Positions 11,934 through 17,208 of a stretch of DNA of 64,000 nucleotides are shown here, in pieces. Position 1 is the stretch's first letter; the number at the start of each line of letters is the position of its first letter. The stretch comes from Saprospirales bacterium (GTDB taxonomy: Bacteria > Bacteroidota > Bacteroidia > Chitinophagales > Saprospiraceae). A program made the translations under genes and the position numbers. The notes below the pieces were generated by a model, which had not been told where the DNA came from, did no database searches, and worked only from the letters and a program-made list of their open reading frames with translations. The stretch is from NCBI GenBank assembly GCA_007693915.1, contig RECS01000096.1, forward strand, positions 1-64,000, read 5' to 3'.

Positions 11934-11954
11934 TAAATTTGCAACATTGTTGCA
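11934..11954 (+). promoter_or_regulatory. Promoter -7 element overlapping a palindromic operator
   Basis: TAAATTTG (11934-11941) matches the -7 consensus. It overlaps the perfect palindrome TGCAACATTGTTGCA (11940-11954), which would cover the transcription start. The same half-sites occur at the TonB-receptor/DUF4625 intergenic region (16345-16365). A repressor of the Fur/Zur class is a plausible ligand (inference). Confidence 0.65.
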
Positions 11955-11987
11955 TCTAATGAGTTATTAAATAAAAACTAGAAGATT

Positions 11988-12407
11988 ATGAAAAACTTAC
12001 TTTACGGATTGCTCCTTCTTTTTTCAGGAGCTTTACTTTTTACAGCATGTAGTGACGATGATGATCATCATCATAGTGACAATAATGAGGTTACGATCCT
12101 AATCCAATCTCCAACGGATGGTCAAACATTTAGTATGGAGGAAGCTGAGAGCATTGACATTCAGATCACCTTTGAAGCTACTGAAGAAAATCACGATATA
12201 GAAGTCGTTTTATACGCCCATGGGGATTCAGCTAATAAAATTATTGATTGGGATGCTCATGATCACGATCCTTTAATCGAGTTCAATGCAACTGTTGATC
12301 TAAGTAGTTTTGAAGCCGGTACTGAATTCCACCTAAAAACTAAATCCTGCGTAAATCACAGCTGTAATGATTACGAAGAAAAAGAAATAACATTTACTAT
12401 TGAGTGA
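11988..12407 (+). CDS. Small His/Asp-rich lipoprotein, probable metal binder
   Basis: A 139-residue lipoprotein with lipobox LFTAC (Cys21) followed at once by an acidic and histidine run (DDDDHHH, residues 23-29). The rest is a single Ig/beta-sandwich-like domain with scattered His (YAHGD, DAHDHDP, CVNHSC) and two Cys. It resembles one repeat of the DUF4625 lipoprotein at 16396-17208, and both share the same operator sequence upstream. Binding of a transition metal such as zinc at the cell surface or periplasm is the likely role, by inference. It has its own promoter and terminator. Confidence 0.7.
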   Translation: MKNLLYGLLLLFSGALLFTACSDDDDHHHSDNNEVTILIQSPTDGQTFSMEEAESIDIQITFEATEENHDIEVVLYAHGDSANKIIDWDAHDHDPLIEFNATVDLSSFEAGTEFHLKTKSCVNHSCNDYEEKEITFTIE

Positions 12408-12477
12408 TAAGTTCGGACTAAAAACTATTAATAATCGTTTTTCTATTTCATTGAGTTTCGGTTTTTAGTGAACATAA

Positions 12478-12505
12478 GGGATTCCAAAGGGAGTCCCTTT
12501 TTTTT
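12478..12505 (+). terminator. Intrinsic terminator of the His-rich lipoprotein gene
   Basis: GGGATTCC / GGAGTCCC (8 bp with one G-U pair), loop AAAG, then eight T. Confidence 0.85.
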
Positions 12506-13124
12506 GTCCTATGGGATCCTTTTTATTTTAAGAAATCAGCCGGTATTTAGTTGAGACTACTCTGAAAACCCGTACGACGAGTGCAATATCAAATTCAAGA
12601 AGATTTTGGTGATGTAGTAATTAAATTTTTGGAATTAGGCTATTAAACAATAATGTAAAAGTTAGATGGCTGTTGATCCAAACTAACTAAATGTATAAGG
12701 ATAATTACTTTTGTTGATTAGCTAGGCAGATTTATAATCAATCGACCTGACTTGCCCCCGAGAAAATTGAACACCGAACACCCATTAATCTTGTCTCGTC
12801 AATGGGCTGTGACTTGACGAGGCGATATTTGATTTAAGAAGTATTCAAAGCTTAAGAATAATGATTATAAATCAAATCCATATTGAATAATGGAAAATTC
12901 TTAAATTGAATATTGATGCCTGCCCCATATATTTTAATAGATCCCTTGCCTGTCTCCAATCGATTTTGTAGATTTTTCAATCAAAAAAATTTGAATAAAG
13001 TATGTTTTAATAAAGTAGAAAAATACTTTCGTATCTATTAGCTTGTTTTAAAATTAGCTATGCGCCTAATACAATAAATTTTTTATTCTATTCATTTGTA
13101 ACGAATACTATTGTTCATTTGTAA
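12506..13124. other. AT-rich gap without recognisable genes
   Basis: About 620 bases with frequent stops in all frames and no recognised motif. It may hold sequence left from the decayed ATPase gene whose C-terminal part lies beyond the MITE-like element, but I could not identify an N-terminal Walker region. Confidence 0.5.
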
Positions 13125-13128
13125 TAAA

Positions 13129-13427
13129 TGAGTCCGCTCCAAAAACCCCTTTCTATTACAAATTGCTGCAAAATTCAATATCTTCATCATTAGGAAAAAT
13201 CTTTCCTCAACTTCTCGTCTTTTGGGACGAGATGGCTAAGCCTGCGGGCAACCCGCCCGCTTCGCGGTTCTCGATCTTGAAGGTCCCCCGCACAGCCAAG
13301 CCGCCCGCTTCGCGGTTCTCTCTCTTGAAGGTCCCCCGGACCTTCACCCTCCGGGATCGTTCGTTCATCCTCGATCTTGAATTTTTCGCTCATTTTCATG
13401 ACGAAAAGGGTTTTTGGAGCGGACTCA
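13129..13427. mobile_element. 299-bp MITE-like element with 20-bp terminal inverted repeats
   Basis: The left end TGAGTCCGCTCCAAAAACCC (13129-13148) is repeated exactly in inverted form at 13408-13427. Each end is flanked by TAAA (13125-13128 and 13428-13431), a plausible 4-bp target duplication. The interior is markedly GC-rich for this window and contains two 38-bp copies of a CCGCCCGCTTCGCGG-type unit (13253-13290 and 13301-13338, period 48). No transposase is encoded; short ORFs inside are by-products of the repeats. Confidence 0.7.
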
Positions 13428-13441
13428 TAAATGATTAAAAT

Positions 13442-13807
13442 TTGACCACTTTTGAAAGCTCTATGAAGCTTCACATCAATCTTGAGGGTTTTCCCGCATT
13501 TTTAACAACAGAAAATACAGACATACTCACTACATTGGTTGATCATAATATTTACAGATACATCGCAGTCAGGCATAATATCCGAGATATTAGGTTATTA
13601 AAGCGATTATTATTGTTTCTCACATCAAATTGCTCTAAGCTTATTTCAGCAAGCAAATTTAAACACCACATAGGCACAAAAAGCACAGCTACAGTATTGG
13701 AATATCTTAACTTTTTTCGAGAGTCCTATCTCATTCAACTCATCTCTAAATTTTCGTAATCACAAAAGGTTCGACTTTTCAATCCAATGAAGATTGATTT
13801 CCATTGA
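13442..13807 (+). pseudogene. Second decayed ATPase/DUF4143 fragment
   Basis: Open from 13442 to a TAA at 13757-13759, then recognisable for 15 more codons. The segments EGFPAFLTTEN, YRYIAVRHNIRD, LLKRLLLFLTSN, TVLEYLNFFRESYLI and ISKFS, then after the stop LFNPMKIDF, match the central part of COG1373/DUF4143 ATPases (GFPE, YRDIxxRYNI, YLxxLxxxxLI, NPKKIYAID). The N-terminal ATPase domain and the C-terminus are absent. The fragment begins 14 bases after the MITE-like element. Non-functional. Confidence 0.7.
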
Positions 13808-13973
13808 TAGAAAAAAGATCCAAATCATTCCCGCTCATAAGTACTTTGTTTAATGTTACTAACTGCAAAATCTTAACTTTTCCTGAACTGGTTGGCATAT
13901 TGGGGGCAGGAGGACAAGCCTCCATTAAATTGGGGACTCTTTAGGTTGTGAACAAGTGGGCAATACTCAAAGA

Positions 13974-16355
13974 TCAAAAGCCAACACTAACGGGAATATG
14001 CAATCTCAATACAAAATTTCTGCCCTGTTCGGGTATTCCCAATTGACGATACCTGCTCAAATGATTGAAGTATTTTGTATCCAAGATATTGTGCGCCATA
14101 AGAGATATACTAACCCCACCAAGCCAATTTTGAAAGGTAAATCTCAAGCCTGTATCAAGTATATGATAAGACGGAGTCGTCAATTCGTTCCTGTCCACGC
14201 GAATTTGAGCCGCAACCCACCGGTGCGAAATATCTGCACTAAACTTTATCTGTGGTCCACTCCACATTTTTTGATAACTAATTTTACTCAGCAAACTATG
14301 GGGTGGAGTAAATGGCAAGGCCAGACGCGTATCCAAATTGTACGACCAAACACTTTCAATTGATTGTGCCCAATTGAGAAAAGAAAAAACCTGGTATTCC
14401 CACTCCACTTCAAATCCTGAAAATATGGCATTGTGTTGCTCATATCTATACAATTGCCCCGCATCAGGCAGTGGAGAAAATTCAGGAGATGGTCGCAGAT
14501 AAATGTAGTCGTTAAAAAAGTTGAAAAATGGAGAGACGGATATGAGTGCTTTTTCTGAAAAATACCTTAATCCAATATCCAACTGATATCCGTGTTCTGC
14601 ATCTAGATCCGGACGACCTATTTCGTGTCTGAATGATCCATGATGCACACCATTGGAGGAAGTTTCCACGGGATAAGGAATCCTAAAGCTTTTTCCCAAG
14701 TGACCAAACAATTCAAGCTGATCATTGTCTGTAAATTTTTTAATAAAACCTACTGAAGCTGCATAATTGAAAAAGTGGTGGTCAGTTGCTGCTGAGTTCA
14801 ACTTTCCTATAACATCACCTGATGTATTCCAAACATCTCTGCCCGCTTCATCAGATTTATTGTGGCCATAATCCAGTCTTAAGCCCGCCTTTAATCTAAG
14901 TAACTCGCCCCAATTAAAGTCCCGATAACCATAAATACCCGCCCTCAATGTCCGAAAAGGAGGTAAAAAATAATCAAAGCCCCCTGTTTCATTACCCTGA
15001 TGTTGAATATTGAGGCCCAATTTGAATTCCTCCTTTGAAGAAAAAGCAGCATCTATACTAATGGTCCTCAATTCCATTTCCAGCGCTAATCTTTCATTGA
15101 TATCAGCCCTGTCTTGAATGGCGTGAAATTCAGGGAAAGAAAATTCACGACGGTGATTTTCCTGAAGACCCAAGTTGATTTCCAACATTTTTTCTCCCCT
15201 CAGCTGACGTTGAAAAAAAGCGACTAATCTTTGATGGCTTACCCTTTGGCTGGGAAATTCAATATTCCTTGCATCTCCATCATCTTGCAGAGCAAAAGAT
15301 TGCGGGATACCCACTGCACCGGAAAATATTCCTACATGCTGTCTGTATTTCGAAGCAGTCAGCCTGAATAGATTTTTCTCATCCCTGAAACCTGCGGTGA
15401 GACTGAAGGCCGATTCTTTACCGGCACTATTTTTCAGACGCTCATTAAAAATAGGCAGTTCAAAAGTGTTATAAACAAAACGATCAGTCGGAACGCGATA
15501 GTCAGAAAAAGCCTGTTGGGAAACATTTGCAGAGGCAAAGAAATTTTCTCCTGCACCCGATACGAATAGATTTCCACCTAGGTGGTCATTATTGGATTTG
15601 CCCAAAAGTGTAACTGCAATATTTGCGGTATTCCTGATTGCAATCGGATCTGGTAAAATTCGAACTACACCTCCCAAACCATCTGAGCCAAATTCCAGAG
15701 ATGATGGTCCTTTTAATACCTCTATCCTCCTCGCGCGAAACTGGTCAATCTCTAATCCGTGATCGACCCCCCATTGGTGCCCCTCCTGCTTAACGCCTTG
15801 ATCTGCGACGATCACCCTGTTAGCGTACAAACCCCTGATTACCGGCTTCCCTATACCCAGACCTACATTTAGGTGATTTACACCGGGTAAAACTGATAAA
15901 CTGGCAGCCAAATTTCCCTCTGTTCGCTCATCAAAAAAATCTCCTCCAACAAAACTTACCGGCTGAAAGACATCTCTAACTAATCGATCTTCAAAGACGT
16001 TTATCTCCCTTAGGCTTTCTGTACTCGGGTGAAGTACTATATGAAAATGATCCTCATCAAAAACAGGACTTATTTCAACCCTCTTTTTTTTATATCCAAG
16101 GTAACTTACTTCTATATATCTTGGAAATCGCTTGTGTTGTAACTCAAAAGCACCGTGCTCATTAGTAACTGTACAGGTAGTATCGGGAAAAGTGCATACC
16201 GTAGCTCCGGGTAAGGTTGTTCTATTGTTGTCAACTACCACACCTCTCAAAGTAATCTGCGCTGCAATTTCAGATGACATCCCCAGGACGTTATACAAGA
16301 AGAAAAGCAGTACCACTTTTAGGGTCACTCCAAAAAAGTTCTTATTTTGCAACAT
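13974..16355 (-). CDS. TonB-dependent receptor, probable metal or metal-complex importer
   Basis: A 793-residue outer-membrane receptor. After the signal sequence (about 1-33, ending SEIAAQ) comes a carboxypeptidase-regulatory-like domain (about 34-112). The plug (about 120-240) contains GKPVIRGLYANRV, QEGHQWGVDHG and IEVLKGPSSLEFGSDGLGG, and a barrel follows to the C-terminal strand (FVLRLHIPVSVGF). The His-bearing plug motif and the divergent DUF4625 lipoprotein suggest ZnuD-like zinc uptake, but heme or another metal complex is possible. The annotated ATG lies inside a palindromic operator directly after a -7 element, so translation is either leaderless or starts at a GTG nine codons later. 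Confidence 0.9.
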   Translation of the reverse strand: MLQNKNFFGVTLKVVLLFFLYNVLGMSSEIAAQITLRGVVVDNNRTTLPGATVCTFPDTTCTVTNEHGAFELQHKRFPRYIEVSYLGYKKKRVEISPVFDEDHFHIVLHPSTESLREINVFEDRLVRDVFQPVSFVGGDFFDERTEGNLAASLSVLPGVNHLNVGLGIGKPVIRGLYANRVIVADQGVKQEGHQWGVDHGLEIDQFRARRIEVLKGPSSLEFGSDGLGGVVRILPDPIAIRNTANIAVTLLGKSNNDHLGGNLFVSGAGENFFASANVSQQAFSDYRVPTDRFVYNTFELPIFNERLKNSAGKESAFSLTAGFRDEKNLFRLTASKYRQHVGIFSGAVGIPQSFALQDDGDARNIEFPSQRVSHQRLVAFFQRQLRGEKMLEINLGLQENHRREFSFPEFHAIQDRADINERLALEMELRTISIDAAFSSKEEFKLGLNIQHQGNETGGFDYFLPPFRTLRAGIYGYRDFNWGELLRLKAGLRLDYGHNKSDEAGRDVWNTSGDVIGKLNSAATDHHFFNYAASVGFIKKFTDNDQLELFGHLGKSFRIPYPVETSSNGVHHGSFRHEIGRPDLDAEHGYQLDIGLRYFSEKALISVSPFFNFFNDYIYLRPSPEFSPLPDAGQLYRYEQHNAIFSGFEVEWEYQVFSFLNWAQSIESVWSYNLDTRLALPFTPPHSLLSKISYQKMWSGPQIKFSADISHRWVAAQIRVDRNELTTPSYHILDTGLRFTFQNWLGGVSISLMAHNILDTKYFNHLSRYRQLGIPEQGRNFVLRLHIPVSVGF

Positions 16356-16368
16356 AGTTGCAAAAATA
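16345..16368. promoter_or_regulatory. Divergent operator and minus-strand -7 element
   Basis: A palindrome with 9-base arms, TTTTGCAAC / GTTGCAAAA, and a 3-base centre ATA spans 16345-16365. TATTTTTG on the minus strand (16361-16368) matches TAnnTTTG and overlaps it. On the plus strand TTATTTTG is a 7/8 match. One bound repressor could control both the receptor gene and the DUF4625 gene. The half-site is the same as at 11940-11954. Confidence 0.65.
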
Positions 16369-16395
16369 CGGTTATTTTTACAATCTACTTGACTT

Positions 16396-17208
16396 ATGAA
16401 AAATATCTACAGACTTCTGATAGTGAGTTTATTTATTGGCTTGTTTTCATCTTGTACGGATGATGATATAGATACTACACCTCCTGAAATACTCTTTCTC
16501 GAAGTGAGCCCCAAGCCTCAGGAAAAGATAATCTGCGGTGAACCAGACCCGGAAACCATTGTCGTTACCGGAGGGGAAACAGTTACTCTTGATGTAGTAA
16601 TTACAGATGATACAGAACTTTCACAGTTGAAAATTGATGTACATCCCAATTTTGACTGTCACGGACACAGAACCATTAGTACCACAGACTGGACTGTTTT
16701 AGAGCTCATTAATCTGAGTGGAAAAACTGTAGAAAAACTAATTCAAATTGAAGTACCTGAATTGGTAACTGCGGGTTACTATCACCTTCAGTTGAGAGCT
16801 GTAGATAAATCCGGCAATACCAGCCCTGCTGCAGATTTCTGGAACCTTAAAGTGAGCAACCCTTTGGATACCATTCCACCGGTTTTTGATATTTTATCCC
16901 CATCTGAGCACCCGGCAGCTATAGAACGTGGAGAAGATTTGACCTATAATATTCTGGTATCCGATGATCAACCCCTTAACATGGGTGGCAACGCAAGGGT
17001 AGAATTGACCTACCGACAAATCAATAGTAACAATACTTTTACCGCATTGGAAAAAAAGCTTGAGACTAAGGACACTGTAAAAGAAGTTGAAATTTCTTTT
17101 ACCATACCCAACACTTTGGTCAGAGGGAGCTATTTGTTCACCATAAGAGTTTGGGACGGAGTAAACAATCAGGCGGAGCCGGAGAGATTTGAAATAGAAA
17201 TTCAATAG
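16396..17208 (+). CDS. DUF4625-type lipoprotein, probable metal-binding partner of the TonB receptor
   Basis: A 270-residue lipoprotein (FSSC, Cys20) with an acidic post-Cys run (TDDDIDTTPPEI). It has two beta-sandwich repeats, about 28-152 and 158-270, each opening with a TxPP(E/V) segment and ending with a D(K/G)xxNxxxP strand. The motif DVHPNFDCHGH (81-91) supplies His83, His89 and His91. DUF4625 proteins are typically encoded beside TonB-dependent receptors. Here it is divergent from one with 40 bp and a shared operator between them. A surface metal-capture role is inference. Confidence 0.8.
   Translation: MKNIYRLLIVSLFIGLFSSCTDDDIDTTPPEILFLEVSPKPQEKIICGEPDPETIVVTGGETVTLDVVITDDTELSQLKIDVHPNFDCHGHRTISTTDWTVLELINLSGKTVEKLIQIEVPELVTAGYYHLQLRAVDKSGNTSPAADFWNLKVSNPLDTIPPVFDILSPSEHPAAIERGEDLTYNILVSDDQPLNMGGNARVELTYRQINSNNTFTALEKKLETKDTVKEVEISFTIPNTLVRGSYLFTIRVWDGVNNQAEPERFEIEIQ

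Follow-up and report, generated by a model that had tools for sequence, protein, structure and literature searches.

A palindromic operator before putative zinc-capture and zinc-import genes in Saprospiraceae, a candidate Zur box

A stretch of 64,000 nucleotides from a Saprospirales bacterium (contig RECS01000096.1, positions 1 to 64,000; here called the window) contains two copies of the palindrome TGCAACN3GTTGCA, one before the gene for a histidine-rich (His-rich) lipoprotein and one between the divergent genes for a TonB-dependent receptor and a lipoprotein of the DUF4625 family. The palindrome is most probably a Zur box run by a class B protein of the Fur family, and it would control a set of genes for zinc capture at the cell surface and for zinc import. 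We put the probability of this reading, which is built on sequence comparisons, at about 0.83. The features that carry it are the sites and their rarity, the genes behind them, their conservation, their fusion with the promoter, the zinc ligands that the receptor shares with ZnuD and the Zur signature of the candidate regulator, all of which are seen directly in the sequence. Zinc uptake and its control by Zur are well studied in several phyla and hardly described in Bacteroidota, a phylum that dominates the gut and many marine communities. The comparisons point to a system for the control of zinc uptake that had not been described before in Bacteroidota.

The palindrome in the window and in the genome

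Both palindromes lie where the first-pass annotation of the window had placed them. The first, TGCAACATTGTTGCA (11940-11954, no strand assigned), is a perfect 7-1-7 inverted repeat and overlaps the -7 element of the lipoprotein gene. The second, TGCAACATAGTTGCA (16348-16362, no strand assigned), which together with its T and A flanks reads TTGCAACATAGTTGCAA, overlaps the promoter of the receptor gene and stands before the divergent DUF4625 gene. They are the proposed Zur boxes 1 and 2, and box 2 probably serves the receptor gene and the DUF4625 gene alike.

No other sequence in the window matches TGCAACN3GTTGCA when up to two mismatches are allowed. This two-mismatch count is ordinary (2 observed and 2.55 expected), and what makes the finding significant is therefore the number of exact matches, together with the genes that follow them. 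Given the base composition of the window, chance would yield 0.003 exact matches in 64 kb and 0.15 in the whole genome of 3.43 Mb. Five exact copies were found in the genome, while the reversed pattern, used as a control, gave none. There are also four sites with one mismatch in the genome, a number within chance, and these were not used.

The three remaining exact sites lie outside the window. On C91 the site is found 30 base pairs (bp) before a DUF1826 gene, which is followed by the gene for a COG0523 GTPase, and on C107 it is found 17 bp before the gene for a MerC-type protein. On C196 it is found 14 bp before the glycerol-3-phosphate cytidylyltransferase gene (tagD) of a teichoic-acid-like operon, in which genes for a TarF-like transferase and for other steps of surface-polymer synthesis follow. 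DUF1826 and MerC were identified by Pfam, and the best match of the COG0523 GTPase is the zinc chaperone ZigA, with 539 bits where the cut-off is 600. Published Zur clusters include COG0523 and DUF1826 (PMC2770081). A search for a ZIP transporter (PF02535) found none. The small regulon first proposed from the two sites of the window has the shared operator that was claimed for it, but it extends beyond the window to five sites, including those of the COG0523 chaperone, of MerC and of an operon for the cytidine diphosphate glycerol (CDP-glycerol) pathway. A CDP-glycerol polymer under zinc control would be unexpected. Only two true tagD orthologues were found in the genus, and the operator precedes both (L038:4577, which is G000:C196:34576, and L051:4947 in G004).

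Conservation in related bacteria

Eight genomes of the genus contain 30 exact sites and no copy of the reversed pattern. The zinc-type set, defined as the His-rich lipoprotein, the receptor with DUF4625, DUF1826-COG0523, MerC and a second DUF4625-like lipoprotein, stands behind 27 of these sites; two precede tagD and one is an orphan. Outside the genus, members of the family and the order repeat the same gene families behind the site, and in G012, G025 and G037 it is followed by the arrangement of lipoprotein and receptor, with or without DUF4625.

A search of named genomes by receptor alignment yielded 80 loci (1.22 Mb in all). All are from Bacteroidota, mostly from Saprospiraceae, Cytophagales and Flavobacteriales, with Parabacteroides and Prevotellaceae as the most distant. 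The loci have 42 exact sites and 99 sites with at most one mismatch, whereas the reversed pattern was found at neither level, and 82 of the 99 sites are upstream of a listed family. The loci of Parabacteroides, Prevotellaceae and Tannerella retain the pair of receptor and DUF4625, and no palindrome was found in them. Taken genome-wide, TGCAAC-N3-GTTGCA is rare and precedes zinc-type metal genes in the home genome and in its relatives, and it is thus not a common motif unconnected with metal genes. The sites thereby show what characterizes a Zur regulon, namely one palindromic operator that several genes of the zinc-acquisition type have in common and that related species have kept.

The orphan operator of the genus (L053:4923, in G004:C128) has a fused -7 box, a terminator-like stem about 200 bp downstream and reading frames of at most 26 amino acids. 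It occupies the position of the His-rich lipoprotein gene in relatives, and either this gene has been deleted there or a small RNA is encoded. Another feature seen in the loci is a protein of about 70 amino acids without a family (MIPxTFEEWKNCIV...), whose gene often has DUF1826 or MerC on one side and the COG0523 gene or the receptor on the other (L036:1048-1269, L064:4254-4460 and L080:3225-3446).

Fusion with the promoter

The -7 box of Bacteroidota promoters has the form TAnnTTTG. The box of the His-rich lipoprotein gene, TAAATTTG (11934-11941, plus strand), has this form and overlaps TGCAACATTGTTGCA, and the box of the receptor gene, TATTTTTG (16361-16368, minus strand), overlaps TGCAACATAGTTGCA. 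At 24 of the 30 sites in the genus the palindrome and a -7 box are fused, with the TG shared between TTTG and TGCAAC, against a background frequency of 0.015 per position. A dimer bound there would hide both the -7 element and the transcription start, which fits simple repression. With TGCAACN3GTTGCA as the operator of a zinc sensor of the Zur kind, the zinc-loaded dimer would block RNA polymerase, and zinc shortage would release the repressor so that the target genes are made.

The annotated ATG of the receptor (16353-16355) lies inside the palindrome, just behind the -7 box. The messenger RNA would therefore be leaderless, or the true start would be further in, possibly at a GTG. In the named loci there are also tandem palindromes at preferred spacings, mostly 37-39 bp from start to start (L147, L148, L151, L153, L157, L170, L184, L186, L187 and L219), with 28 bp in L181 and L193 and 22 bp in L196 and L204. 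This spacing suggests that two dimers might bind cooperatively.

The putative surface lipoproteins

The His-rich lipoprotein (11988-12407, plus strand) is an open frame of 139 amino acids, modelled as an immunoglobulin (Ig)-like beta-sandwich with conserved His, Asp and Cys. It belongs to no known family, but relatives are found behind the same palindrome. The DUF4625 lipoprotein (16396-17208, plus strand) is an open frame of 270 amino acids with two Ig-like domains, recognized by Pfam (8.4e-29) and scoring 100.9 bits against PF15418, for which the gathering cut-off is 27.

The export signal of lipoproteins in Bacteroidetes, a polar residue and then acidic ones after the lipobox Cys, is SDDDD in B. 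fragilis and SDDFE in F. johnsoniae (PMC5080379). Both lipoproteins have such a signal, CSDDDD in the His-rich protein and CTDDD in the DUF4625 protein, and both are likely to be exposed at the cell surface. In the His-rich protein the lipid Cys and SDDDDHHH (12048-12074, plus strand) fit the SDDDD consensus followed by three His, and at least two acidic residues at positions +2 to +6 are kept in 10 of 12 relatives. The acidic or His-rich N-termini to which the first-pass annotation had given a part in metal capture are thus present after the lipid Cys, but the acidic run is better explained as an export signal. The acidic residues then need no metal role, and the acidic N-termini were set aside as metal sites.

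The metal ligands are more likely to be the conserved His, Asp and Cys of the folded domains. DVHPNFDCHGH, which had been singled out in the DUF4625 lipoprotein from the start, is present (16636-16668, plus strand) and is the proposed metal site. All 53 DUF4625 relatives that were aligned retain the three His of this motif, and the most conserved part of DUF4625 is DxHxNFD(C/G)H(G/S)H. In the family alignment of the His-rich protein several His and Asp are retained, together with a C-x-D-H-D-C-like motif. The two families align with a probability of 97%, and they are therefore probably related Ig-like domains.

It is unlikely, though well worth weighing, that the regulon is linked to zinc while the lipoproteins themselves are metal-free and serve to shape or cap the receptor or to protect the envelope. 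The structure models are confident (predicted local distance difference test, pLDDT, 92.6 for the His-rich and 94.6 for the DUF4625 protein), and both show a plain Ig-like sandwich for which PDB offers no functional neighbour. Fold comparison gave generic Ig- or fibronectin type III-like sandwiches only, and such matches say nothing on function; one of them is RbmA, which the His-rich model matches with Z 9.7 and 2.5 A over 99 residues. However, the invariant His triad of DUF4625 and the conserved His, Asp and Cys of the His-rich family speak against metal-free lipoproteins. Co-regulation with the receptor also argues against them, as do surface lipoproteins of Bacteroides that bind the ligand of their partner receptor (BtuG-BtuB and XusB-XusA).

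Searches for DUF4625 on plasmids gave no match, and no mention of the family was found in an open-access collection of 5.4 million papers. A role in zinc capture would give DUF4625 a concrete proposed job. A second lipoprotein of about 308 amino acids is weakly DUF4625-like (Pfam 4.8e-6) and occurs at L047:6703 and L055:10049, and also in L169, L175, L178 and others. In G003 and G005 an exact operator of its own precedes it, and in Cyclobacterium, Belliella and Lunatimonas it stands beside the receptor in place of DUF4625. In the window, the interval between lipoprotein and receptor contains GC-rich repeated units (CCGCCCGCTTCGCGGTTCTC..., 13218-13345) in AT-rich surroundings.

The receptor

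The receptor gene (13974-16355, minus strand) is an open frame of 793 amino acids with an uncertain start codon, and its product has the plug and barrel of TonB-dependent receptors according to Pfam, preceded by a CarboxypepD_reg domain that is typical of Bacteroidota. Its closest named relative, with 89% identity, is from a Saprospiraceae metagenome-assembled genome of the CSSed16 series, which places the source of the window among uncultured Saprospiraceae. A profile of nine orthologues compared with PDB has ZnuD as the first match (1.8e-28) and the next at 1.5e-14. Against the ZnuD model NF038289 the receptor scores 97 bits with a cut-off of 950, and it is accordingly described as ZnuD-like and outside that model.

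Zinc is bound in ZnuD by Asp99, His100, Glu340 and His499 (PMC4557270). After correction for a 14-residue offset of the PDB chain, three of these four ligands align with residues that are invariant among the orthologues. Asp99-His100 corresponds to Asp-His at residues 198-199 (15759-15764, minus strand), and His499 corresponds to His571 in NGVHHG (14643-14645, minus strand). The motif NG-[VIM]-H-[HF] was found in 78 of 80 receptor relatives.

The receptor might instead carry haem or an iron compound, with lipoproteins that bind haem or siderophores and a palindrome to which the canonical Fur (C119:6751) or a haem or iron regulator binds as its operator. TIGR01785 (TonB-hemin) is indeed the top NCBIfam match of the receptor, with 1e-32 against 8e-28 for ZnuD, and ZnuD itself was formerly misannotated as a haem receptor. 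This alternative is nevertheless very improbable, given that ZnuD is far ahead among solved structures and that the companion genes are of zinc types (ZigA-like COG0523, DUF1826 and MerC). Moreover, the canonical Fur occurs also in genomes without the motif, and it is class B genes that the motif precedes.

The candidate regulator

Two Fur-family proteins are encoded in the genome, the canonical Fur on C119 and the short class B protein on C112 (135 amino acids, G000:C112:56859-57158), which is the candidate Zur. The class B protein has the Fur fold (PF01475, 51.7 bits against a cut-off of 23.1). His77 and Cys88 of E. coli Zur are zinc ligands of the regulatory site, site B, and among the ligands of this site it is Cys88 that Zur proteins conserve best (PMC4219657). 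Equivalents of both are present in the class B protein and absent from the canonical paralogue, in an alignment for which the positions of His77 and Cys88 were checked against the PDB sequence. The region of the other site-B ligands, His96 and Glu111, has several His and Asp in a gapped alignment. When the class B profile was compared with solved structures, E. coli Zur ranked first (2e-14), with His77 and Cys88 aligned. The NCBIfam Zur equivalog NF008646 gives 32 bits with a cut-off of 167, and the protein is therefore called Zur-like and placed outside that equivalog.

The palindrome stands directly before the class B gene in 9 of 22 named loci, and twice in G022, which is the pattern that a repressor of its own gene would leave. 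The class B gene of several relatives lies inside the cluster of receptor and DUF4625, and in Phaeodactylibacter xiamenensis (L155) the cluster contains this gene and exact sites. Among 31 genomes that are at least 90% complete, the class B protein and the motif occur together with a Fisher p of about 0.001-0.004 (the treatment of G019 makes the difference), a value that is not a strict probability since the genomes are related. A Nur- or Mur-like regulator responding to nickel, cobalt or manganese is marginally less likely still than haem or iron. In its favour, the COG0523 and MerC families serve other metals too and the best single-sequence match of the regulator is the Fur-family protein 3eyy. 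Against it, the His77/Cys88 signature is of the Zur type, the class B profile prefers Zur and the zinc ligands of ZnuD are conserved in the receptor.

Proposed function

Several observations weigh against a Zur box that controls zinc genes. The fourth ligand of ZnuD, Glu340, falls outside the two aligned stretches of the receptor, and haem receptors have part of the same ligand layout. As a single sequence, the class B protein matches other Fur proteins better than Zur. Its presence does not always coincide with that of the palindrome: three complete members of the family (G008, G013 and G015) have the protein without an exact site, G034 and G039 have one site each with no class B protein detected, and G019 has a site but only a class B-like protein without the signature. 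No site with up to three mismatches was found in the 3.8 kb surrounding the znuA-type gene (C178:39093), although the promoter of that operon may lie outside this stretch. Finally, among 99 genomes drawn from across the phylum the motif is only modestly enriched. The operator is thus typical of Saprospiraceae and their neighbours and not of all Bacteroidota, and a phylum-universal operator was dropped.

The first-pass annotation had regarded the genes of the window as a metal-responsive system for surface capture and import, possibly of zinc. The zinc-type genes behind the motif, the ZnuD-like receptor with conserved ligands and the Zur-like regulator all point in that direction. From these features we infer that the class B protein would bind the palindrome, with zinc as the signal and repression, not activation, as the effect, and that the lipoproteins would bind zinc and hand it over to the receptor. 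In zinc shortage the His-rich and DUF4625 lipoproteins would then bind zinc outside the outer membrane and the ZnuD-like receptor would take it through that membrane, while the ZigA-like COG0523 GTPase and DUF1826 would allot zinc within the cell. The MerC-type inner-membrane protein would be induced at the same time, as would, probably, the CDP-glycerol pathway for a surface polymer.

A more specific proposal, which must be called tentative, is that this is an undescribed zinc system of Bacteroidota in which DUF4625 and His-rich lipoproteins load a ZnuD-like receptor, the Zur operator is placed in the -7 box, and the genus also induces a CDP-glycerol polymer as a zinc-gathering change of the surface. 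The result offers the phylum a testable operator, regulator and list of targets. The pair of receptor and DUF4625 is also found in gut genera such as Parabacteroides, where the host competes for zinc.

Comparison with known systems

The proposed regulon resembles the Zur regulons of Proteobacteria, Actinobacteria, Bacilli and Cyanobacteria in its Fur-family sensor with a His77/Cys88-type site, in the 7-1-7 palindromic operator over the promoter and in COG0523, DUF1826 and a TonB receptor as targets. It differs in that the operator is fused to the Bacteroidota -7 box and in that DUF4625 and His-rich surface lipoproteins, MerC and tagD are added to the targets, while znuA is not obviously included. 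The operator TGCAACN3GTTGCA was not found in open papers on Zur or for Bacteroidetes, RegPrecise and subscription journals being outside the search, and a 2018 review of Zur does not mention Bacteroidetes.

ZnuD of Neisseria has overall similarity to the receptor and shares three of its four zinc ligands with it (Asp99, His100 and His499), but the receptor described here has a CarboxypepD_reg N-terminus and surface lipoproteins as partners. ZepA of Anabaena, which is controlled by Zur, is comparable by its description, with extracellular zinc handling and a His-containing and acidic N-terminus. However, ZepA is a PEP-CTERM exoprotein with the motif H-X2-9-H-F/Y-H, whereas the proteins described here are lipoproteins with other motifs, and the text of the ZepA paper mentions neither Bacteroidetes, lipoproteins nor DUF4625. 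In BtuG-BtuB and XusB-XusA of Bacteroides, too, a surface lipoprotein and a TonB-dependent transporter work together to obtain a scarce nutrient. The ligands of those systems are vitamin B12 and an iron siderophore, and their lipoproteins belong to families other than those found behind the palindrome.

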